IMG/VR virus record: IMGVR_UViG_3300024311_000004
Span: 1 to 43,294 of that record
DNA from: a virus
Length of the DNA stretch: 43,294 nt
Direction: 5' to 3' (one strand)
The notes beneath the pieces are model-generated. The model was not told the DNA's origin and made no database searches. It saw nothing but the letters and a program-made list of their open reading frames with translations. Positions 6,554 through 24,507 of the stretch are shown here, one piece after another. A program made the position numbers and the translations under genes. Positions within the stretch are counted from its first letter, which is position 1. Each line of letters begins with the position of its first letter.

Positions 6554-8038
6554 ATGTCTTTAGGTGATTATATCTTTAAAAGTCTTCCGTACAGGATGCA
6601 GAGTGATATTGCCTATGGCAATTACATGAATGCAGAGGCTGACATTAACCGTTTACAGGGGTTAAATCAAAACCTTGCCTCCTATCGCGAGGCCTTACAA
6701 GAAGCACAGCAAGCCAAGTTCACAGCTGGGGAGGAGTATCTTGCCGCAATCAATGCATCCCGAAAACAACAAGGCAAGGAGCCATTTACTGGATATCCAG
6801 AAGAGGCTATGGGCACACGCAGGGTAATGCCAGCAGTTGACCGCATGGGTGCGCCCCTTACGCCTGATGAAGAAGATATGCTTAGGCATACACCTCCACG
6901 CAGGGCTGTTCCTGTTTCTCCAGAAGAGATGACGCAGGCGCAGGAGACAAGGTTTATGCAAAATGCTGGTGAAATGGCTCCAGCATCATACCAAGAGACC
7001 AGCGAGGAAGGCAGTGTGCCCACAAGCCCGTCTAGAGTTCAATTCCTTGGTGGAAGAATGGAGGGTCAGCCAGAAGCTCCTAAGCAACCAAAAGCTACAA
7101 AGAAATCTGATTTCACTCAAGTCTCGAACGAGAAACAGCCTGCAAGGCAGTTAACTCCACTTGAGCGGTACAATGACTTGATTTCAAGAGGCGAAGTTGG
7201 TGAGGCAAATGAACTTAAGTACAATCTTGAGAAGCAGACATTTGACCGCAACATGGCAAAGATCAACGCTGCTTACGTTCAAGTTTTAAACACTCAGGGT
7301 GCCGCTGAAGCGGATAGGTTTAGAGATGGGTACGCTAAAATAGCCAAAGAAAGGTTTCAGACTAAGCCTATTGAGGAGACTGAAGCATTTAAGACTGCTC
7401 AAGTGTATGTGAACCGGGCTGGCTTCCATCAGAACCGCAGTAGCGTTGCGATGCTTGGAGAAGAGTTGGCTTTTGCAAAAAAGATGATAAAGGATGGCAA
7501 ATCTAAAGAAGCTGTAATTCAGGCTCTTTCAGCAAACATCCCAAAACTAATTCAGTCTCTTGCTACTGGACAATCAGATGCCGTGCAGGAAGCCGAAGCA
7601 AGAAGGTTGATGCCTGAACTTACAACGATTCTCGGCCAAGGATTTGACATAAATGCTGCGCTTAAGCTCGCAAGTCAAAAGGAAGCATCCAAGTGGTTTA
7701 CGACTCAACCTCAAGACTTTATTAATAAAGCAGAGAAAATCTTTGCTGCTGCTGTGAAGGTTCAAAACGAAAGTGCAAAGCAGTACAGAAAGCAGATTGG
7801 ATCAAGGGCTGCGGAGTCCATACTATTGACCGAACTTCCAACAGCGGTTGAACCCGGAGGAGGTAACGAATTGTTTCAATACAGGCAAAGACTTGCCGCA
7901 ATAAACCCTTCGCCACAGCAGGCTCAGATGCAAGGTCAGCCACAGCCTCCTCCAGTACAAACCCAAAGGGGCACTGCTGCTGGAGTTAATCCCTCGTCTA
8001 TTTGGCCTGTCTTTGGTAAAGATAGCTTTGGCCAATAA
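6554..8038 (+). CDS. Candidate internal virion protein (494 aa)
   Basis: This is a 494-aa protein of unknown family. Residues ~25-60 are a coiled-coil-like segment (ADINRLQGLNQNLASYREAL). A disordered Pro/Glu/Gln region at about 85-200 is followed by a mostly helical core (residues ~205-440), and a Pro/Gln-rich tail ends the protein. It sits between two other candidate ejection proteins and is of late-gene type (TAACATATG start, no Shine-Dalgarno). I infer a virion component; no enzyme motif was seen. Confidence 0.55.
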   Translation: MSLGDYIFKSLPYRMQSDIAYGNYMNAEADINRLQGLNQNLASYREALQEAQQAKFTAGEEYLAAINASRKQQGKEPFTGYPEEAMGTRRVMPAVDRMGAPLTPDEEDMLRHTPPRRAVPVSPEEMTQAQETRFMQNAGEMAPASYQETSEEGSVPTSPSRVQFLGGRMEGQPEAPKQPKATKKSDFTQVSNEKQPARQLTPLERYNDLISRGEVGEANELKYNLEKQTFDRNMAKINAAYVQVLNTQGAAEADRFRDGYAKIAKERFQTKPIEETEAFKTAQVYVNRAGFHQNRSSVAMLGEELAFAKKMIKDGKSKEAVIQALSANIPKLIQSLATGQSDAVQEAEARRLMPELTTILGQGFDINAALKLASQKEASKWFTTQPQDFINKAEKIFAAAVKVQNESAKQYRKQIGSRAAESILLTELPTAVEPGGGNELFQYRQRLAAINPSPQQAQMQGQPQPPPVQTQRGTAAGVNPSSIWPVFGKDSFGQ

Positions 8039-8039
8039 T

Positions 8040-11000
8040 ATGCCTTCTCCGATCTTAACCAAACAACTTCCAGTTGACCCTGAATCCGATAGCTACAGCA
8101 TTGCCCTTCCAACTAGGTTTCTAGAGGATGGCAACATTGCTACTATAAGTTATCCAAAGAGTGTTCCTCTAGAAGAGGCACTTGCTGATATTCATGCAAA
8201 CAACCCAAGGGATGCTGCTGATACGCACATTGAGTACATGCTCGATCCTGAGTATCGCAAGAACATGCCGTTTGAGGATTTTAAGGAGTGGAAGAACGTA
8301 AAGCGCAAACTACAGGGGACGGAAGTGGACATGAGCTATATGGATCTTGCCGTGGATGCGGCAAAGGCTATAGCCAAGGGGGCAGGGCAGACTGCTGTCA
8401 GTGTACTTGGGTATGGTTCTACGGATCTTGACCTAAAGAAACAGGCTTCCAATATGTGGAATGCCGTCGAGGCCGGTCTTCAAGGAACTGAAAGACTTTT
8501 CCAACTTGGAAAGCTGGCTGCTGGACTTACTGCCAAGCAACTTACTTTTAATACTGACGCAACTGATGAGGTTGAGTACTGGCTTTATCAGCAAGAGAAC
8601 AATCTTGTTGATACCATGCAGAAGCGTAGTTCTGGTGAACTTATCACATCGGATATGCGCCCATCTCAGATGGCGGCACCGACCAAAGAAGATATTGCAG
8701 ACATCAATTCGATGGCTAACTTCTTGGATGCCAGTCTTCTTGTTCCTCCGCTTGGAATTGCCGAGAAGATAGGAGCAAAGGTAGCTGCCAACACTATTGC
8801 CAGAAACATCCTTCCAAAGGTAATTGCTGGAGAGATCTTGCCTAAACTTGCATTTGGAGCAGCCGAATACACTGGCAAGGCGTTGGATTACGGCACCAAG
8901 CTTGTACTTAACGGTGTTGTTGGAACTGTTGAAAAACTAGCCGAGGCGGCAGGCCAAGGGGCTGTATCTCCGGGGGCGCAATATCTTGCGCGTAAGGCGG
9001 CTGTTATTGGACTTGGACTTACGGATGCCACATCGGGACTTGTAGCCATGTCTGCTGCTGGGAAGTTTGGCTTAAGACCATTAGGCGAGATGGGCGGGGC
9101 TATGGCGAAAGCAATGGCAGAGGGTGCGCCAGTAAGGGGCGCATTGCGTGAAGTTGCTCAAACCAGCAGTTCGGACGTTGTTCGGGCAATGGCAAGGGGC
9201 GCTGTAAAGATAGCTCCCCCAGAGGCGTTCTTTGATGGTGTAAAGCACATTGCTTCAGCGGCCTTCGATACTGGCATGTTCATGGGAACACTTGGCATGA
9301 TGGAGGCTAGTGCCGCACAGGATGATCCTATCCACGGGTTCATGGAAGGGTTTGCAAGTGGTGCTGGCGCTGGATCTATGTTTGGTGCAGTAGGGGCGCG
9401 TGGTGCTGCCAAGGGAGCCAAGGTTGCAAGGCTTGCAGAGTACTTTGATAACGACATCCGGGGCAGGCAGCCGCAGGCGGCAATCGACGTAAACGGGCAG
9501 CAGGTAAGGATAAACGATCTTGATGGTAGGGTTGCACTATTTAACCGCGACGATCTTACCCCTGAGCAAAAAGGATTCATCTTATCGCTCACTCAAGCTC
9601 ACGAAAAAAGCGGCAACTCAGTTTACTTCCATGATGGCTCGCCAGAGATGCTGGCAGCCTTAGAAGCCGCTGGAATTGGTGCTGGTGAAGGCGTGCAGTT
9701 CTTTGATGGGCCAGAAGGCAGGAGTACGGTCATCATGGATGCCTCGGCGTTAAGTCCCGGCACGGCTGTTGAGGAGGTATTCCACGGGATGGTCAGCGAC
9801 TCGGTCATTAAAGAGATTGGTCGCAACATCAACTTGGAACTAAAGGCTGCTACAGCCCCAGAGGCTGCAGTTGACCCGACCCTTCCGACCTACGCCCCAA
9901 GACGGTCTGCGGCAAACAAGGCCCGTGGGCAGGAGATGCTTAACGATCTTCAGAGTTTTGCTGACAGGTATATCGACCTTCTTGAAAAGAGTGGCACCGA
10001 ATCTGGACGCGCAAAGGCGGCGGAGTATCGCTCGTTGATCTATCGGGTAGCGACAGACCCGAACATGATGCCTGACATCAAGGCTGACATCCTTACCCCT
10101 ATCCTTAACGAGTATGGGGCAAACTACGCTAGGGCCAAGTTGGCTGGCATGAAGTTGCCAAACCTAATGGAGGGAAACATCCGCAACTTGTGGGATAACC
10201 TGTGGGATAAGACGATGGGCAACCTGTTGTCTTCCTTTGATGCCAGCAAGATTGGGGCGATGAAAGATCCGATCACCGGGCATTTCTTCAACGAGAAGGG
10301 CAAGCGTGTAATCAATCCTACCCTTGAGCGGATGGTTGATCGGTACATAGAAGCCGCCTCCGAGGGGCGCAAAGAGATCCCTGCCGAGAATACAACATCC
10401 GGCACCTACTACTTTGACGTTCGAGCCGACAAGCCGTTTGTGTCCTACGAGGACATGATCGACGGCAGGCAGACAACGCAGGCCGAGAAAAAGAAGATCC
10501 ATAATGCTGCATTTAAAGAAGCGGCTGAGTGGTTAAACGCCAACTCTCCTGTGGACAATGTTGTTCTTGTGACGGATCGCCTTAAGTACGAGGGCGCGTT
10601 TCACGGGAACATAACAAACATGAAGTCAGGCAAGGATACGCTTATCTTTACACAAAACATGCCAGAAGCCTTCTTTGATTTTGAGGCAGAAAGGGGCCGA
10701 CTTACCCCAGAGCAGGCAAGTATCCATAAGAGCATAAACCGCAGCATGGTTGGCGGCCAGATTATAATGATTGATGCTATATCGGATATTGGCAAGCATA
10801 AGGGTGACAGGAGCCTTGTGTACTATGGGCGCGGCAATCGAGCATTCTTGCCCATTTCCTACCAACAAGGGCCGACGGGCGGTCTTACACTTTCAGGGCT
10901 GGATATAACCCGTGTATGGAGCTACGCCCAACGTGCAGCCAAGAAAGTGCGTGCAGTACGCGAAGAGTTTAAAGCCAAGGGCATTGACTCCATGCAGGAG

Positions 11001-12941
11001 TTCCTGCCGTACATGCAGAGGTACTTTGATAACTACTCCAGCGAGAACCCAATCCCGGCAGCCGAACTTAAAGACTTCTCGCCAACCATGCGGGATGTAA
11101 TCAGCATGGCACTTAGCGACAGCATTGGGATTCGTGAATCCTTTAGGGCCGAGGATGAAGGCAAGTTTCAGAACCTGCACACCTTCAGCGCAAGGTTAGT
11201 TGGTAGCCCAGAGGCATCGGTTGTCACAAAGTACCGCAGGGGCGACATCACTCACGCTGAGATGAACAGGGGGCTTGAGGCCAAAGGGGCGCGTCAACGT
11301 GTTGTGCCTCTTGGTAAAACGGAAGCTGAAGCGGTAAAGGCCGTGAAGATGGCGCGTGAATCTGTGTCACTACTACAGCTTAGGGCTGACCGTATACTTG
11401 GCTTGTCAGACTTTTCGATCAACAACGCTCCGTTTGCCATCAAGTACAACCCGTACAAGGTAACCAATCTTGTCCGTGCAAACTTTAGTCCGGGGCGCAC
11501 CATCAACGAGAAGATTGGCGACTCGCAAGTTATTACCGACGCAGTCAATGGCAAGCGCATGATTGTCAAGCCAACTGGCAAGGTGACCTTGTTTGATGGC
11601 GAGAACAAGAGCATCCACGATAGCGTCGAGGAAGCGCAGGACTTTGCCAATAGCAGGACTAATAAGCAGGATCTTAAGAATCCTCCTGTAGAGCAACCTG
11701 ACGTTGAGGCTATGTTTGCGCCTAAGCGCAAGAAGGATGCAATCGAGTCCACAGACAACGCTTTCAATGATCCTACAAACTCTATCCGCGCTTTGTCTGA
11801 TAAGGCGGCACGCCTTTACCGGGATGGGCATCTTGAAATTGGAGAACTAAACAAGATCCTTGTTACCCTCAATCAGCGGCAAGGCAAGTCAACTACCGAG
11901 GCAAGGAAAGAAGCTGCCCTGTTTGTGGCGGATGCCGTGCGTGGATTGAAGCCTGAGATCATTCAGCAGGAGAAAGCGCCTGCAGTTGAACTTCCAGCGG
12001 AAGAGCCATCGAATGTCACCTATGAAGGGATGACTAGAGATGAAGCTGTTACCCTTAAGTTGCTTAACAAGAACGGCACTGTATCTCTGAGCAAGATCCG
12101 AAAGTACAACGCCGAGAAGGCTAGGGAGCAAAGAGAGCTTGACCGTCTTCAAAAGGAAAAGAATGCCGAAGTTGAGGCTCTTGCAAGGGAGATTAAAAAG
12201 AAAGAGGAGCAAGACAAGCGGGAACAGGATCAAAAAGATCAAGCCAGACAGAAGGAACTCGATGCTGCAAAGCGTGCAAGCGAAAAGGAGTACGAGGCTA
12301 CGACCAAGCGTATCGAGAAGATGATCCGCGATGACAATGAGAAGGCGTACCTTGAGCGTCAAAAGATAGAGGCGAATTTTGAAAATCGGATGGAGAAGAT
12401 TCGCGAACGGGCACGCAAGGTTCGCAAGAAGACAATGGAAACCCTGCTTAAGGAGCAGGATCAGTCCTATGATGCTTATGTAAAAGAGTTTCTGGCCCAA
12501 GAAGACCTTACTTCCAAACAAGCAATTGCCGCTGGCGTTGAGCGCAGGAAGGCAGGTGAGCAGGCCGAGGCTACAGCCCGCAGGCAACGCACAGTCGAAC
12601 GTGTAATGGGTATGAAGTCCCTGCTGGAGGCAAGGGATACTCAGGCGGCTGAAGATGCTGCCACAGTACTAAAGTTCCAAAACAGATTGGCTGACCAGCA
12701 AACGGCCATGCAGGATATAGCGGCTAGAAAGGCCGAGGCTAGGGAGTTAAGGGCACAAGAGCAACCTGCCAGAGTTGAAGATATCCAACCGATCTCTGAT
12801 CCCCGGATACCAAACAATGTCCGAATCATCTTTACTCCATCCAAGAAGTACCGTGTATATTACTCTGGCGCAGGGCTTGTGGGTATAGTAAACGACTTTG
12901 ATTCCGCACTTAAACTATCTCAAAAATATGCCGCTCGTTAA
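8040..12941 (+). CDS. Giant internal virion/ejection protein (1633 aa)
   Basis: This is the largest gene. I place the start at ATG 8040, one base after the upstream stop; an in-frame GTG at 8013 is less likely. Residues ~100-470 contain several Gly/Ala-rich amphipathic or hydrophobic stretches that could insert in membranes. VEEVFHGMV at about 577-585 resembles an HExxH metallopeptidase helix with the first His replaced by Glu. Residues ~1350-1465 form a long Lys/Glu-rich coiled coil. Length, position after three structural genes and hydrophobic segments resemble the large ejection proteins of podoviruses (T7 gp16 class), but I see no transglycosylase motif. It may be a multidomain polyvalent-type protein injected with DNA. 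Confidence 0.6.
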   Translation: MPSPILTKQLPVDPESDSYSIALPTRFLEDGNIATISYPKSVPLEEALADIHANNPRDAADTHIEYMLDPEYRKNMPFEDFKEWKNVKRKLQGTEVDMSYMDLAVDAAKAIAKGAGQTAVSVLGYGSTDLDLKKQASNMWNAVEAGLQGTERLFQLGKLAAGLTAKQLTFNTDATDEVEYWLYQQENNLVDTMQKRSSGELITSDMRPSQMAAPTKEDIADINSMANFLDASLLVPPLGIAEKIGAKVAANTIARNILPKVIAGEILPKLAFGAAEYTGKALDYGTKLVLNGVVGTVEKLAEAAGQGAVSPGAQYLARKAAVIGLGLTDATSGLVAMSAAGKFGLRPLGEMGGAMAKAMAEGAPVRGALREVAQTSSSDVVRAMARGAVKIAPPEAFFDGVKHIASAAFDTGMFMGTLGMMEASAAQDDPIHGFMEGFASGAGAGSMFGAVGARGAAKGAKVARLAEYFDNDIRGRQPQAAIDVNGQQVRINDLDGRVALFNRDDLTPEQKGFILSLTQAHEKSGNSVYFHDGSPEMLAALEAAGIGAGEGVQFFDGPEGRSTVIMDASALSPGTAVEEVFHGMVSDSVIKEIGRNINLELKAATAPEAAVDPTLPTYAPRRSAANKARGQEMLNDLQSFADRYIDLLEKSGTESGRAKAAEYRSLIYRVATDPNMMPDIKADILTPILNEYGANYARAKLAGMKLPNLMEGNIRNLWDNLWDKTMGNLLSSFDASKIGAMKDPITGHFFNEKGKRVINPTLERMVDRYIEAASEGRKEIPAENTTSGTYYFDVRADKPFVSYEDMIDGRQTTQAEKKKIHNAAFKEAAEWLNANSPVDNVVLVTDRLKYEGAFHGNITNMKSGKDTLIFTQNMPEAFFDFEAERGRLTPEQASIHKSINRSMVGGQIIMIDAISDIGKHKGDRSLVYYGRGNRAFLPISYQQGPTGGLTLSGLDITRVWSYAQRAAKKVRAVREEFKAKGIDSMQEFLPYMQRYFDNYSSENPIPAAELKDFSPTMRDVISMALSDSIGIRESFRAEDEGKFQNLHTFSARLVGSPEASVVTKYRRGDITHAEMNRGLEAKGARQRVVPLGKTEAEAVKAVKMARESVSLLQLRADRILGLSDFSINNAPFAIKYNPYKVTNLVRANFSPGRTINEKIGDSQVITDAVNGKRMIVKPTGKVTLFDGENKSIHDSVEEAQDFANSRTNKQDLKNPPVEQPDVEAMFAPKRKKDAIESTDNAFNDPTNSIRALSDKAARLYRDGHLEIGELNKILVTLNQRQGKSTTEARKEAALFVADAVRGLKPEIIQQEKAPAVELPAEEPSNVTYEGMTRDEAVTLKLLNKNGTVSLSKIRKYNAEKAREQRELDRLQKEKNAEVEALAREIKKKEEQDKREQDQKDQARQKELDAAKRASEKEYEATTKRIEKMIRDDNEKAYLERQKIEANFENRMEKIRERARKVRKKTMETLLKEQDQSYDAYVKEFLAQEDLTSKQAIAAGVERRKAGEQAEATARRQRTVERVMGMKSLLEARDTQAAEDAATVLKFQNRLADQQTAMQDIAARKAEARELRAQEQPARVEDIQPISDPRIPNNVRIIFTPSKKYRVYYSGAGLVGIVNDFDSALKLSQKYAAR

Positions 12942-13843: not shown

Positions 13844-14038
13844 ATGGAACGACTTATCAAAACCAAAGAGGTAGCCCTGCAACTAGGGCTGGAAACAAAC
13901 ACCGTCCTACGATTGGCGCGTGAAAACAAAATCCCACACTTTCGGTACGGCCCTCGTACTATAAGGTTTAAGGCAAGCGATATTCACAAGTATCAAGCCA
14001 ATGCCAAAAAAGATCAACAGCCGTCAGAAGGGGTGTAG
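13844..14038 (+). CDS. HTH excisionase-like DNA-binding protein
   Basis: This is a 64-aa protein beginning at ATG 13844, one base after the previous stop. It reads as a MerR/excisionase-type winged helix-turn-helix: LIKTKEVALQLGLETNTVLRLARENKIPHF followed by the wing RYGPRTIRFKASDIHKY. Such proteins bind DNA as transcription regulators or recombination directionality factors. No integrase is visible in this window, so a regulatory or replication-accessory role is more likely than excision. The 3' end overlaps the next gene by 38 bases. Confidence 0.75.
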   Translation: MERLIKTKEVALQLGLETNTVLRLARENKIPHFRYGPRTIRFKASDIHKYQANAKKDQQPSEGV

Positions 14039-14360
14039 GGGCGAACGACTGTGGCGTGATGTCCTCCGCGAGGAGGGCTTCACCGCCCGTCGAGGCCAGC
14101 AGTTCTCAGGTGGAACAGAGTCACCTGACGTAATCTGTGATGAGCTTAAGTCTCTTCACATGGAAGTGAAGTTTGTCGAGCGGCTCAACCTTGAGCAGGC
14201 TTGTGAACAGGCTGACCGGGATCGCGGTGTAAAGCCGTACATCATTGCCCACAAGAAAAGCCGTAGCGGCTGGAAGGTAACGATGGAAGCATCACTATTC
14301 TTTGCACTCCTGCGTGATGGCATGGATGTGTTGAGACATGAGTGGATGTCAGAGCTGTAA
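14001..14360 (+). CDS. Holliday-junction resolvase-like PD-(D/E)XK nuclease
   Basis: This is a 119-aa protein with the signature of small phage/archaeal-Hjc-like resolvases: GCRGERLWRD (catalytic Glu15), QQFSGGTESPDVIC (Asp43) and MEVKFVE (Glu55-x-Lys57). The metal-binding set E..D..ExK matches the PD-(D/E)XK fold. It would cut four-way junctions or branched replication intermediates before packaging. It overlaps the HTH gene by 38 bases, so expression is coupled. Substrate specificity is inferred. Confidence 0.78.
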   Translation: MPKKINSRQKGCRGERLWRDVLREEGFTARRGQQFSGGTESPDVICDELKSLHMEVKFVERLNLEQACEQADRDRGVKPYIIAHKKSRSGWKVTMEASLFFALLRDGMDVLRHEWMSEL

Positions 14361-14480: not shown

Positions 14481-14786
14481 ATGAAAAAACAAAGACACTT
14501 AGTGGAGATCGGGGAAGACGTTGCTAGTGCGGTACTGATTACCCGGCACCAAGATGGGAAAATCGGGCTTGCTACTCCAAAGGGAGATGTGGGTCTTATG
14601 GAGATCATGGCACTCACCTACGGCGTGTTTGTCAGCGTGTTGCAGGGTGGCGAGCAGCAGGGCGTTAAGGAGTTAAGCCTCATTCGTGACGCGATTAAAA
14701 TTATGCCGCTTGAGGAAGTCCGCGAGAAGTTGGTTGAGATTACCATCCTCGTTAAGGCAGACATGGAGGGCGCATCCAATGATTAA
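14481..14786 (+). CDS. Unknown early protein (101 aa)
   Basis: This is a 101-aa protein that I do not recognise. The N-terminal half has beta character (LVEIGEDVASAVLITRHQDGKIGLATPKG) and the C-terminal half is helical (SLIRDAIKIMPLEEVREKLVEI). The start follows an A-rich leader with AAAAAACA. It ends overlapping the next start by eight bases, and it sits inside the replication block between a resolvase-like nuclease and a possible helicase-loader gene, suggesting DNA-metabolism context only. Confidence 0.6.
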   Translation: MKKQRHLVEIGEDVASAVLITRHQDGKIGLATPKGDVGLMEIMALTYGVFVSVLQGGEQQGVKELSLIRDAIKIMPLEEVREKLVEITILVKADMEGASND

Positions 14787-15537
14787 ACTTCGCATCACAA
14801 CCGCAGGCGGCACCAAGATCGAACTCGATATTCCAATCGACGATTCTAAGCCAGCTTCTATCGAGTCCGCTGTACCTTATCAGCCGGAACCCGTGACCCC
14901 TGTAGAAACGGCCACAGAAACGCAGGACGAGGTAGTTCGTTTGTTCGATGAGCCAGCGCCTGTTCAGCCAGCAACGGATCTTGAGCAAGCGATAAGGAAG
15001 TATCAAACCTCGCCAACCTTTCCGTCGAACAAAGATCTTGAACCAACGGGCAAACGCTACACCTCAGTCGAGGCAATGATTGAGGATACTTGCCCTGAGA
15101 TTCTCGATGCATTCAAGCAAAGCCTACAGCAGGGGGAAGGGGAAAAGGGGGAAGATGGTAGGATAGGGGGTGTGGGGGAAAGGAAGGAAGATGGGGAAAA
15201 GGGGAAACCCGAGCGATCCATTGCGTTTGATTTTAAATTCATGTGCAAAGGTAAAGATGACTACACGCCACCAGACTTGTTGGTTCAAAACCATCTTGCC
15301 GCTTATGGCGAGGAGTTTGTCATTGCCCAATATCGCGAAGCTCAAAACTGGCTGCTCACAAACACGCACAAGCTGAAGACACTTGGAGGAACTGGAAAGT
15401 ATCTTTCTGGATGGCTAAAGCGATCCAAGAAGTATCAAGACGAAGAAGCTCGCAAGTTGGCGGCACAACCAGTTCGCGTTTACCAGAAAGCAGATAATTT
15501 ACTGAGCAATGCAAACACGCAAACAGAAGGGTGGTAA
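14779..15537 (+). CDS. Possible replication accessory/helicase-loader-like protein with G-rich linker
   Basis: This is a 252-aa protein starting at ATG 14779 inside the previous gene. The N-terminal ~110 residues are poorly conserved-looking and Pro-rich. A Gly/Glu/Lys linker at about residues 118-143 is encoded by a striking G-rich tract. The C-terminal ~85 residues (TPPDLLVQNHLAAYGEEFVIAQYREAQNWLLT core, then KYLSGWLKRS) resemble the helical C-terminal domains of phage replisome organisers and helicase loaders. It directly precedes the helicase N-half and overlaps it by 29 bases. Function is inferred from that position. Confidence 0.5.
   Translation: MIKLRITTAGGTKIELDIPIDDSKPASIESAVPYQPEPVTPVETATETQDEVVRLFDEPAPVQPATDLEQAIRKYQTSPTFPSNKDLEPTGKRYTSVEAMIEDTCPEILDAFKQSLQQGEGEKGEDGRIGGVGERKEDGEKGKPERSIAFDFKFMCKGKDDYTPPDLLVQNHLAAYGEEFVIAQYREAQNWLLTNTHKLKTLGGTGKYLSGWLKRSKKYQDEEARKLAAQPVRVYQKADNLLSNANTQTEGW
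15131..15207 (+). repeat. G-rich near-polypurine tract in a coding linker
   Basis: This strand contains seven runs of four or five consecutive G separated by A-rich spacers, with only a few T and no C. The G-runs start at 15132, 15139, 15147, 15166, 15174, 15193 and 15201. It encodes a Gly/Glu/Lys linker, so it is in frame with the surrounding gene. Such a tract can form G-quadruplex or triplex structures. Base composition is unlike its neighbours. Confidence 0.75.
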
Positions 15538-16222
15538 CCCAACGCCGGATCTTGAGTTCTGCCGTGCAGAGGAGGCCGAGAAAGGACTTGTCAGCATCAT
15601 CCTGAACAACCCGGACGAGGCGCTGCTAAAGATCACCGAAGCAGCCTTTAGCGTTGCTGACATCTTCGACATCCAACTCCGAAACATTGCAGAGATAACT
15701 CTACAGCAAGCTGCTCAAGGCAAGGCGACTGACATTCGCGTCATCTACGAGTTGGCACGGAAGGATACTCATCTGGAGTTTTATCAGTTGAGTGACTTGT
15801 ACACGGCTTGCCCGATCTTGTCGCTCGCTAGTGAGTTCATCGAGTTAACCCGTACAGCAGCAAAGCGCAGGACTATGCAGATAGTATTGCACAACGCACA
15901 GACGGATATTCGGTCCGGGGACTTGAACGAGTTCCTGACAGGGCTAGTGGCAGTATCGGAGGGGGTGCAAAACGAGATTGCTCCACCCAAAGTGCTTGAC
16001 ACTAAAGCTCAATTAATGGAGGCAACTACACGCTATGAGACTGGTGATGACAACAGCACCAGAATCAGAACTGGCTTTCCAGAGATTGACAACATGACAC
16101 CGATGCGCGAAACAGATTTGATCGTCGTTGGTGGAGAAACAAAATCAGGGAAAACAACTTGGGTACTAAACGTAATCGCAAACATAATCAAACATGAAAT
16201 TAGTCAACTTGACACCGCATAA
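15509..16222 (+). CDS. Replicative helicase, N-terminal half (DnaB-like, with Walker A)
   Basis: This is a 237-aa protein. Residues ~20-145 match the helical N-terminal domain of DnaB-type helicases (EEAEKGLVSIILNNPDEAL, later LSDLYTACPILS). The linker RIRTGFPEIDNMTPMRETDLIVVGGE leads into the P-loop GGETKSGKT at 208-216 (Lys215). The protein stops 21 residues after the P-loop, before beta-strand 2. The rest of a DnaB helicase (SLEMS motif, Walker B, H3/H4) is encoded separately at 17604-18200. No intein sequence is visible at this end. Together the halves would form a ring helicase that unwinds DNA at the fork. Confidence 0.85.
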   Translation: MQTRKQKGGNPTPDLEFCRAEEAEKGLVSIILNNPDEALLKITEAAFSVADIFDIQLRNIAEITLQQAAQGKATDIRVIYELARKDTHLEFYQLSDLYTACPILSLASEFIELTRTAAKRRTMQIVLHNAQTDIRSGDLNEFLTGLVAVSEGVQNEIAPPKVLDTKAQLMEATTRYETGDDNSTRIRTGFPEIDNMTPMRETDLIVVGGETKSGKTTWVLNVIANIIKHEISQLDTA

Positions 16223-16517
16223 CATCCACATCACCGGGTACGGTGACATTGAACCGTCGGGCACAATCCCGCGCAGCCACTCGTACCTCTCGCAGGTAGA
16301 CTCCGTGGAAGGTATACCGATCATGCTCGCAACACAGGGAGACGTCTCAAATATGCCTCCTGCAAAAAAAGGCGTGCTATACGTTGTGAGTTCGTATATC
16401 CGTGAATGCCTGCCGGAACGAGCAGACCTGCTTAGTCCGTCAAAACTGATTCGCGATCAGGGTGGTAACATCATCGGTTGCGGAGCATTACAAGCCAACA
16501 ACAGCTACAAGAAATGA
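16194..16517 (+). CDS. Conserved 'NLTPH' protein of unknown function (107 aa)
   Basis: This is a 107-aa protein opening MKLVNLTPHNIHI, with IEPSGTIPR, the GIPIM...GDVSNMPP segment, KGVLYVVSSYI and a C-terminal RDQGGNIIGC. That motif order is a small family I recognise in phages and bacteria without known function. Its ATG lies inside the helicase N-half and it overlaps it by 29 bases. It is the first gene of a cassette that separates the helicase halves. Confidence 0.7.
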   Translation: MKLVNLTPHNIHITGYGDIEPSGTIPRSHSYLSQVDSVEGIPIMLATQGDVSNMPPAKKGVLYVVSSYIRECLPERADLLSPSKLIRDQGGNIIGCGALQANNSYKK

Positions 16518-17287
16518 AAACAGAACTAATCCTAGACCTAGAAATGAACCAGTACAGAAAGCTCGACGGGCTTTCTAAGCATCAACTCGATGCCTTCAGC
16601 GTATGCCCATCCTACTACAAGTGGCGCGGAACTCAGGACTTCAAGCCTACTAGGGAGATGGAACTTGGCACTTGCATTCATTCACTTGCCCTTGAGGGGC
16701 GCGTGGACTATGTGCAGGCACCAGAGATCAATCGTCGCACTAACGCTGGAAAGGCCGAGTGGGAAGCCTTTTGCTACGACAATCAAGGTAAGATCGTCGT
16801 TAACGCAGAAGAAGCCGCTCGCATTGAAGGCGCAGTCAAGGCCTGCGAACCTTTGCTTAACATGATCTCTGCAAAGAAGATTATCGAGGGCAGTATGTTC
16901 TGGGAGCGCGGCGGCATGCAATGCAAGGGCAGGCCAGATGTCATTACCGAGATCAAGGGCAAGCCAGCAATTGTGGATCTAAAGACCACAAGCGACATCA
17001 TGCGCTTTGACAGCAAGTTCTTTAGCCTCAAGTACGACAGGCAGGCAGCATGGTACGCTTACGGGCTAAAGCAGATTCACGACCTTGATGAAGTGGACTT
17101 CTACTTCTTGGTGGTGGATACCGAAGAGCCATTCTTAGCTCAGTGGGTTAAGCCAGATGAGGAGGTTCTAGATAGCGCAAACGTGAAGCTAGACCTTGCT
17201 GTTGCAGGACTTAAGCATTGCATAGAGCAGGATGTGTGGCCCGGACTTCCAACCATCAGAACGATCAGTAAGCGGCCATGGGACTAG
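16514..17287 (+). CDS. PD-(D/E)XK exonuclease (RecB/Cas4/DUF3799-like)
   Basis: This is a 257-aa nuclease. The start is ATG 16514, overlapping the previous stop (ATGA). Motifs in order: LSKHQLDAFSVCPSYYKWR (~20-38), GTCIHSLALEG with His56, CKGRPDVITE with Asp142, and AIVDLKTTS with Asp155-x-Lys157, then a QAAWYAYG helix near residue 180. This is the arrangement of phage exodeoxyribonuclease VIII-like / lambda-Exo-type enzymes used in recombination. A partner annealing protein is not obvious here. It sits between the two helicase halves. Confidence 0.85.
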   Translation: MKTELILDLEMNQYRKLDGLSKHQLDAFSVCPSYYKWRGTQDFKPTREMELGTCIHSLALEGRVDYVQAPEINRRTNAGKAEWEAFCYDNQGKIVVNAEEAARIEGAVKACEPLLNMISAKKIIEGSMFWERGGMQCKGRPDVITEIKGKPAIVDLKTTSDIMRFDSKFFSLKYDRQAAWYAYGLKQIHDLDEVDFYFLVVDTEEPFLAQWVKPDEEVLDSANVKLDLAVAGLKHCIEQDVWPGLPTIRTISKRPWD

Positions 17288-17526
17288 TAGACTACATCGT
17301 CTTCCGCAAGACGACTGTCATTGCAGATGTGAAGCTGCCAAGGCCGAAGATTACCAATGACGTTGTCTTCCGTGGAACCAAGGAAGAAGCATACAAGCAT
17401 CTCGAAGAGATCGAGAAGCTGCCACAGAATCAGTCGAGTGACATAATCAAAGTAGACTTAAAAGTAGTGAGATATGAAGGACAAAAAACAGGAACAAGCG
17501 CACGGCCCGGCAACGGGAAACGATAG
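17278..17526 (+). CDS. Unknown small protein (82 aa)
   Basis: This is an 82-aa protein, basic, with beta-rich segments (YIVFRKTTVIADVKLP, ITNDVVFRGTKEEAY) and a helix (KHLEEIEKLP). It starts ten bases before the exonuclease stop and ends inside the next small frame. No recognised family. Position suggests a recombination/replication accessory gene within the cassette between the helicase halves. Confidence 0.6.
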   Translation: MGLVDYIVFRKTTVIADVKLPRPKITNDVVFRGTKEEAYKHLEEIEKLPQNQSSDIIKVDLKVVRYEGQKTGTSARPGNGKR

Positions 17527-17662
17527 GGACACAGTAGGATTGCAGGCTCACATCCGTGAGTTGAAGGAGTTGGTTGGTAAACTTGAAACTAAAATAGAGA
17601 AATATGAAAAAAGGGATAATGATAGTCAGTCTGGAGATGTCTGCACAGCAGATCATCGATAG
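17474..17662 (+). CDS. Short coiled-coil protein, overlapping on both sides
   Basis: This is a 62-aa frame with an N-terminal charged linker and a heptad-like helix (GLQAHIRELKELVGKLETKIEKYEKR). The last 20 codons lie over the start of the helicase C-half, and the first 18 over the previous gene. The coiled coil suggests a real small protein, but heavy overlap at both ends lowers confidence. If real it could tether partner proteins; that is speculation. Confidence 0.45.
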   Translation: MKDKKQEQAHGPATGNDRDTVGLQAHIRELKELVGKLETKIEKYEKRDNDSQSGDVCTADHR

Positions 17663-18200
17663 GCTTGTAGCCAACTTAGGCGAAGTGTCGTTGCGCTCTC
17701 TTGCAGAGGGCGTGAAGAGCGAGGGCGAGATGCGGGGTGTGTTCAAGGCTATGAACGCACTTAACAAGGTGCCGATTGTGATTCGTGATGATCTGCATGA
17801 TATCGCGTCCATAGTGGCAGCAGCGCGAGCGATGGGTAAGTCAAAGGACGGACTGAAGATCTTGTTTGTTGACTACATCCAGCTAGTGCGCTGTGACCTG
17901 ACAAGTCACAAGGATATCACCCGTGAGCGTGAGGTGGCCGAGGTTAGCCGCAGGTTGCGTTTGCTGGGCCTTGAACTGGGGTGCGTGATATTTGCCATTA
18001 CGCAACTTAATGAGCAGGGCAGGGCACGCGAAAGCCGGGCAATCGGACAAGACGCGACTGCGGTTGTGATCGTCAAGCTCACGGAAAATGCTGGAGAGCG
18101 CGAGATTAGCATCCCTATCCAACGCTCAGGCCCATCGGGCGTAAGCACCAAGCTAGGCTTTTCGGGCAGGCACGCAAAGTTCTTCTCTCTACCAAAATGA
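17604..18200 (+). CDS. Replicative helicase, C-terminal half (DnaB-like)
   Basis: This is a 198-aa protein opening MKKGIMIVSLEMSAQQ, exactly where beta-strand 2 and motif H1a (SLEMS, residues 9-13) of DnaB follow the P-loop helix. Walker B is ILFVDYIQL (86-94). Motif H3 is RLRLLGLELGCVIFAITQLN (117-136). A probable arginine-finger segment is RESRAIGQDA (142-151), and IQRSGPSGV-like C-terminal residues are typical of DnaB. It lacks any P-loop, which is on the separate protein at 15509-16222. The first in-frame stop upstream is only nine bases before the ATG, so it cannot be extended. Confidence 0.85.
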   Translation: MKKGIMIVSLEMSAQQIIDRLVANLGEVSLRSLAEGVKSEGEMRGVFKAMNALNKVPIVIRDDLHDIASIVAAARAMGKSKDGLKILFVDYIQLVRCDLTSHKDITREREVAEVSRRLRLLGLELGCVIFAITQLNEQGRARESRAIGQDATAVVIVKLTENAGEREISIPIQRSGPSGVSTKLGFSGRHAKFFSLPK

Positions 18201-23802: not shown

Positions 23803-24507
23803 ATGTGCCTACTAGTAGTAAGAAAAGCAAACTCATCGTGGAAACCATCAAAGCAGGAGTTTCAAAACGCATGGGACATCAATTCGGACGGCTTTGGCCT
23901 AGCGTACGCTAAAAACGGGAAACTCAGGATAAGTAAAAGCTTGGATGAAACCGCCGCATGGAAAGAATTGTCCCGCCTCCCCGATAATGTGCCTGCTCTT
24001 TTACACTGGCGCATGGGAACACACGGGAGCGTCAGCTTAAACAACGTTCACCCTTTCCAGCTTTCAGCGGTTCGGGATGTTCGGCAATGGGTAGGCGCGC
24101 ACAACGGTGTTTTGTCCAATATTGTCCCTGAAAAAGATAAGACGGATAGTGAAACCTATTTTCGCACCTTAAAGCATATTCGGATTGCCGATGTTGAAAG
24201 GGACATCTCTAAGCTTGGATATGGCAAGATGAGTTTCCTAAGCAACTCGGGTGATCTGCTAATCGCCAATGAAGCCCATGGAAGTTGGAGAACTCCCGAG
24301 GTATGGCAAAGCAACTCAGGCATGGATGATAAGGGGTTTTCGTATTGCGGGTTTGGGAAAAGCTGGAAGCCTACCGCATATCACGGCAAGGATCCTATTT
24401 TGACCCCTATCGAGTGCTGCGTGTGCAGCCGTCAAGCTGTGTCCTATCGTGATGGATTTGACTTCTATTGCGAAGGCTGTGCAACGTATCCCGAAGTGTG
24501 GAGGTAA
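23803..24507 (+). CDS. Class II glutamine amidotransferase-like protein with C-terminal zinc ribbon
   Basis: This is a 234-aa protein. Cys2 follows Met1, giving the N-terminal nucleophile expected for class II (Ntn) glutamine amidotransferases. NSDGFGLAY (27-35), HWRMGTHGSVSLNNVHPF (68-85), AHNGVL (99-104) and DSETYF (115-120) match the family in order. The C-terminal ~30 residues contain Cys205/Cys208 and Cys223/Cys226, with FYCEGC repeating the motif of the adjacent amidoligase. Predicted job: release ammonia from glutamine and pass it to the ligase. It starts 22 bases after the ligase stop with AAGGAAAA upstream. Confidence 0.75.
   Translation: MCLLVVRKANSSWKPSKQEFQNAWDINSDGFGLAYAKNGKLRISKSLDETAAWKELSRLPDNVPALLHWRMGTHGSVSLNNVHPFQLSAVRDVRQWVGAHNGVLSNIVPEKDKTDSETYFRTLKHIRIADVERDISKLGYGKMSFLSNSGDLLIANEAHGSWRTPEVWQSNSGMDDKGFSYCGFGKSWKPTAYHGKDPILTPIECCVCSRQAVSYRDGFDFYCEGCATYPEVWR

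Follow-up and report, generated by a model that had tools for sequence, protein, structure and literature searches.

The window analysed here is the whole 43,294-nucleotide stretch of viral DNA making up the IMG/VR record IMGVR_UViG_3300024311_000004. On its plus strand, two ORFs of 237 and 198 residues with four genes between them respectively encode the N-terminal and C-terminal parts of a DnaB-type replicative helicase. The features of this locus are:

15509..16222, + strand: N-half of the DnaB-type helicase, 237 aa (Pfam DnaB and DnaB_C 2-46; PHROG 19; 2r6a residues 9-229)
16133..16156, + strand: Walker A motif GETKSGKT, identified from the sequence (K215 and T216 at least 97% conserved in 83 N-halves)
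16194..16517, + strand: 107-aa ORF of unknown function, overlapping the end of the N-half (PHROG 30542/21731, unknown function)
16514..17287, + strand: exonuclease VIII-like PD-(D/E)XK nuclease, DUF3799 (Pfam PF12684; PHROG 412)
17278..17526, + strand: 82-aa ORF of unknown function, found between the halves in 73 of 74 loci
17474..17662, + strand: 62-aa ORF in a variable slot, which in relatives is empty or holds a longer ORF or a cytosine methylase
17604..18200, + strand: C-half of the DnaB-type helicase, 198 aa (Pfam DnaB_C 49-253, E 3.7e-30; 2r6a residues 233-440)
17628..17642, + strand: SLEMS motif of the C-half with the conserved glutamate E11, identified from the sequence (E11 at least 97% conserved)
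17859..17885, + strand: Walker B motif ILFVDYIQL of the C-half with D90, identified from the sequence (D90 at least 97% conserved)
18003..18005, + strand: sensor glutamine Q134 of the C-half, within ITQLNE, identified from the sequence (at least 97% conserved)
18111..18134, + strand: IPIQRSGP of the C-half with the arginine-finger residue R174, aligned with KQRNGP of DnaB (R174 at least 97% conserved)

The N-half comprises the N-terminal domain, the linker, the first strand of the core, the Walker A motif and the helix that follows it, and stops 21 residues past the threonine of GETKSGKT. The C-half, whose N-terminal sequence is MKKGIMIVSLEMS, contains the RecA-like core from the SLEMS strand through the arginine finger and on to the end. 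A first-pass annotation had recognized both halves with their motifs and stop codons, had the N-half stop 21 residues past Walker A and the C-half begin at the SLEMS strand, and had counted four genes between them (the 107-aa ORF, the exonuclease VIII-like gene, and the 82- and 62-aa ORFs); all of this held. Its statement that the two halves are shifted in frame likewise held: the 107-aa gene starts at 16194, one position after the first letter of an N-half codon (16193), and therefore removal of positions 16194-17603 does not yield a single frame. The ATGAAA sequences that it had noted at both boundaries are present, but the meaning suggested for them failed. One is simply the start codon of the 107-aa gene and the other that of the C-half; as the C-half begins with ATGAAC in other members, we rejected the idea of a recombination scar.

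Profile searches with both halves returned complementary matches to Pfam DnaB_C and PHROG 19. The Pfam DnaB_C model matches the N-half over positions 2-46 (24 bits, below the 27-bit cut-off; E 3e-5) and the C-half over positions 49-253 (105.6 bits; E 3.7e-30), and PHROG 19, the DnaB-like replicative helicase family, aligns with them over 161-377 (E 5e-16) and 382-571 (E 9e-31), respectively. The DnaB N-terminal domain (PF00772) gives only weak matches, with 19.5 bits for the N-half of the window and 20.4 bits for that of a relative (L332), against a cut-off of 23. On a single PDB chain, GkDnaB (2r6a), the N-half alignment covers residues 9-229 and the C-half alignment residues 233-440, with neither overlap nor loss. 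Using an HMM built from 79 intact DnaB proteins of bacterial and phage loci, we found that the N-halves align up to position 228, after which about 4 conserved residues are left, and that the C-halves align from position 235, which corresponds to residue 3 of the C-half. Taken together, the HMM and 2r6a boundaries locate the break to the loop that joins the Walker A helix to the SLEMS strand.

Read in succession, the two parts show the domain order and motifs of DnaB (PF00772, here matched only below its cut-off, plus PF03796; PHROG 19; 2r6a), and the motifs of the RecA-like core of PF03796 are complete only when the two halves are combined. In the RecA fold the strand preceding Walker A sits within the central sheet, and therefore the C-half by itself would miss an inner strand. 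Unlike DnaB, which is a single polypeptide, the helicase of the window and of 85 relatives is encoded by two ORFs, with no fused case, lying 1.3-3.8 kb apart, with the break falling within the RecA-like core just past the helix that follows Walker A. The closest intact proteins that we found are only about 30-36% identical. A further difference from DnaB is the shorter loop ahead of the arginine finger: throughout the aligned members the C-half is without about 11 residues between the sensor glutamine and the arginine finger, and an isoleucine replaces the lysine found in DnaB two residues before the latter. Given this missing loop and the lysine-to-isoleucine change, the activity may deviate from that of canonical DnaB.

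The same split was recovered in related phages. Among 94 contigs, each counted once and with the window included, 86 from many IMG/VR metagenomes contain both halves; in the other 8 the C-half lies less than 2 kb from the upstream end of the locus and no N-half is detectable. No fused ORF was found among the 94 contigs or among all the viral loci examined. Near relatives with this split have N-halves of 75-99% identity. A search with the intervening exonuclease added about 58 more contigs, whose N- and C-halves are 45-48% and 66-69% identical to those of the window, and queries with deeper alignments of the C- and N-halves reached a third, more distant set of split loci. Across the whole collection, pairwise identity falls to as low as 34% for the N-halves and 62% for the C-halves. 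The concern that the window is a chimeric assembly, raised in the first-pass annotation, is removed by the presence of this split in 86 contigs. Such recurrence, along with matches of the two pieces to complementary portions of a single family (E 3e-5 and 4e-30), exceeds what chance would give.

The position of the break is itself conserved. The C-half begins with an ATG at the same residue in 86/86 cases, about two residues ahead of the next strand, and the N-halves end 11-30 residues past Walker A, at the point where the helix is complete; conservation of the N-half is lost in the tail that follows residue 226 and overlaps the downstream gene. A stop codon immediately 5' of the C-half ATG is present in many members, and in those members the C-half can therefore have no hidden N-terminal extension. 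Walker A is readable in 85 of the 86 N-halves, the exception being a contig in which the N-half frame is broken. In that contig (3300025872_000304; L010, positions 3-660) the frame is broken once, by a sequencing error or a mutation, and the C-half is intact. K215 and T216 of the N-half and E11, D90, Q134 and R174 of the C-half are each at least 97% conserved.

The distance between the halves ranges from 1303 to 3785 nt and always contains protein-coding genes. The 107-aa gene and the exonuclease are present there in 74/74 loci and the 82-aa gene in 73/74. In the about 58 contigs added through the exonuclease, the shared gene order, where the contig is long enough, is: the resolvase-like gene, the upstream gene, the N-half, the 107-aa gene, the exonuclease, the 82-aa gene, the variable slot and the C-half. 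The variable slot (17474-17662 in the window, 9969-10828 in L021, and also seen in L022 and L009) may be empty or code for a 60-62 aa protein, a 121-127 aa protein or a C5-cytosine methylase (PF00145), and its ORFs overlap the start of the C-half or end just ahead of it.

The gene directly upstream (14776-15537) overlaps the start of the N-half, is always present, and is only weakly conserved, at 25-35% in the distant group; it has no match to a Pfam family, and its position allows the possibility that it is an initiator or a loader. Further upstream, a RusA-like Holliday junction resolvase family protein (PHROG 244; 14001-14360) is 68-83% identical in relatives. Elsewhere the window encodes a 1642-aa ORF (8013-12941) without a PHROG or Pfam match, and a class II glutamine amidotransferase-like protein (PF13230, E 9e-9; 23803-24507).

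Among near relatives, purifying selection acts strongly on both halves: over whole halves, pairwise dN/dS is 0.04-0.14 for the N-half and 0.03-0.06 for the C-half for the pairs that were compared, most of which are close to saturation at synonymous sites. In a tree of 32 split C-halves retained after clustering and 23 intact, mostly bacterial DnaBs, all the split sequences fall on one side of a long branch with 100/100 support. This topology agrees with a single fission, which we consider the probable history; given the long branch and the mostly bacterial sample, a nearer intact relative may exist that was not sampled.

An intact helicase elsewhere in the genome would have refuted the split reading; neither the window nor any of 14 relatives of 34-44 kb yielded one. 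The window has no DnaB_C match other than the two halves, and each of these 14 relatives has exactly two, one covering model positions 2 to about 47 and the other about 44 to 255. Fifteen records of 34-44 kb thus carry only the two helicase pieces. As the record ends are classed as linear, a helicase lying outside the contig cannot be fully excluded for any one record. The absence of a visible intein, as recorded in the first-pass annotation, also held: no intein or homing endonuclease family occurs among the Pfam (E<=0.1) or PHROG hits of the halves and the intervening ORFs, and no Rfam intron family matches the window. Among named phages, a DNA-level search gave no match and the N-half protein gave none at 1e-5; a diverged N-half query retrieved, among the matches inspected, only intact helicases of 21-26% identity. 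One phage, Orisa03, appeared as a candidate split helicase because two features lay under the match, and was rejected, as its helicase gene is intact and of the usual kind, with a length of 1365 nt and an overlap with a neighbor.

The explanation that best accounts for these observations is that the only detectable DnaB-type helicase of this phage consists of two polypeptides that assemble in trans following an old gene fission, and we regard this as very probable. The complementary content of the halves, the lack of any intact copy found, the conservation of the break and motifs across a deep clade, the purifying selection and the grouping of the C-halves against the sampled intact DnaBs are all established by the above analyses. 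Non-covalent assembly, ring formation and helicase activity are inferred from sequence alone, there being no data on physical interaction. AlphaFold models of each half alone, computed on shallow alignments of 9-11 sequences, were uninformative (pLDDT 38 and 40).

Under this proposal, the first protein (237 aa) would supply the N-terminal collar domain and the linker helix, together with the opening part of the RecA-like core (strand, Walker A loop and helix), and the second (198 aa) would supply the remainder of the core with the SLEMS glutamate, Walker B, the sensor glutamine and the arginine finger. Since neither protein has a complete ATP site, we infer that one copy of each would co-fold 1:1 into a single RecA-like domain, and that six such N+C pairs would make up the helicase ring. 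The arrangement is predicted to have originated in one old, probably single, fission in the ancestor of the clade, with the 107-aa gene, the exonuclease and the 82-aa gene having remained between the parts from that time on. The first-pass annotation had left trans assembly and an unseen form of splicing as alternatives; trans assembly is now strongly favored, because the intervening DNA varies in length (1.3-3.8 kb) and codes for proteins in every case, and because the C-half begins with an ATG of its own, in many members directly after a stop codon.

Splicing at the protein level could in principle be mediated by a split intein too small or too diverged to be recognized, and split inteins in fractured gp41-type phage helicase genes do occur in environmental sequences. 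However, the halves leave no spare sequence for such an element, with the N-halves ending at the end of the helix and the C-halves starting about two residues before the strand, the Pfam and PHROG hits of the halves and the intervening ORFs include no intein or homing-endonuclease family, and in many members the C-half ATG is immediately preceded by a stop codon. Alternatively, the halves might be brought into one reading frame by RNA splicing or ribosome hopping; phages are known to have group I introns, and a recent report describes group II introns in them as well (PMC12350094). Against this, the 1.3-3.8 kb in between consists of conserved protein genes along with changing extra genes, the window has no Rfam match, and cutting at the start codons would break the frame. 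With no intein or Rfam hit, no spare residues and a variable gap filled with protein genes, we consider both intein-mediated trans-splicing and RNA splicing or hopping to be highly improbable.

Less readily dismissed is the possibility that the parts no longer constitute a helicase and are retained for another role, such as binding or blocking the host DnaB, with the phage using the host helicase. No DNA polymerase was detected among the large ORFs scanned, so the phage may lean on host replication, and fragments resembling the N-terminal domain and the core could in principle contact the host DnaB. Yet conservation reaches at least 97% both for the P-loop of one part and for each of the SLEMS glutamate, Walker B, sensor glutamine and arginine finger of the other; a P-loop lacking its partner set of strands would have no reason to be conserved, and the two parts always co-occur where the contig is long enough. 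This alternative hence appears unlikely, though we cannot exclude it. Finally, an assembly artefact or pseudogene might be invoked on the grounds that the record is a metagenome contig and that one relative has a broken N-half frame (3300025872_000304, L010); 86 contigs from many metagenomes with varying gap content speak against an artefact, and dN/dS values far below 1 in both halves against a pseudogene, leaving next to no room for this explanation.

Returning to assembly in trans, there are precedents for a single enzyme formed from two polypeptides. In T4-like phages the DNA polymerase 43A/43B, the ribonucleotide reductase NrdA of Aeh1 and the T4 topoisomerase are each split into two chains that are not spliced, and activity has been demonstrated for the split NrdA and 43A/43B enzymes (PMC2988022). 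The present locus resembles these in having two conserved complementary ORFs with no intact copy found, which is one criterion for a natural split enzyme, but here the reassembly is inferred. The T4-like splits are tied to homing endonucleases or to an untranslated insert, neither of which is seen at this locus. The present cut also affects a different enzyme and, unlike those splits, leaves Walker A and the remainder of one ATP site on different chains. The fractured gp41-type helicase genes likewise consist of two ORFs with other genes between them, but the locus described here is without intein halves and without a homing endonuclease. The literature searched contained no account of a DnaB-type helicase that is conserved in split form without an intein; many subscription papers were outside the search, and an earlier report is possible. 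Naturally split phage enzymes being already known, the new aspect is that a replicative ring helicase is cut inside its motor core and is kept in this state across a deep clade.

A bolder reading is that the split is functional, with the pairing of the chains controlling the formation of the ring or the switching-on of the ATPase around DNA, since the core would form only upon binding of the second protein. Pairing might, for example, serve to load the helicase, or to set the time of its action, in the absence of a dedicated loader. We consider this reading doubtful, even if it is not ruled out.

In an essential ring ATPase, it is the catalytic core that is cut here, and the cut has been retained while the N-half diverged to about 34% identity. 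Gene-calling procedures may record such phages as having a partial helicase or none. If the two pieces do assemble, they would represent a natural split RecA-like motor that tests the tolerance of this fold to a break in the chain, make it possible to test if the pairing of chains can control the loading of the ring, and serve as a possible source of a natural split-ATPase pair.
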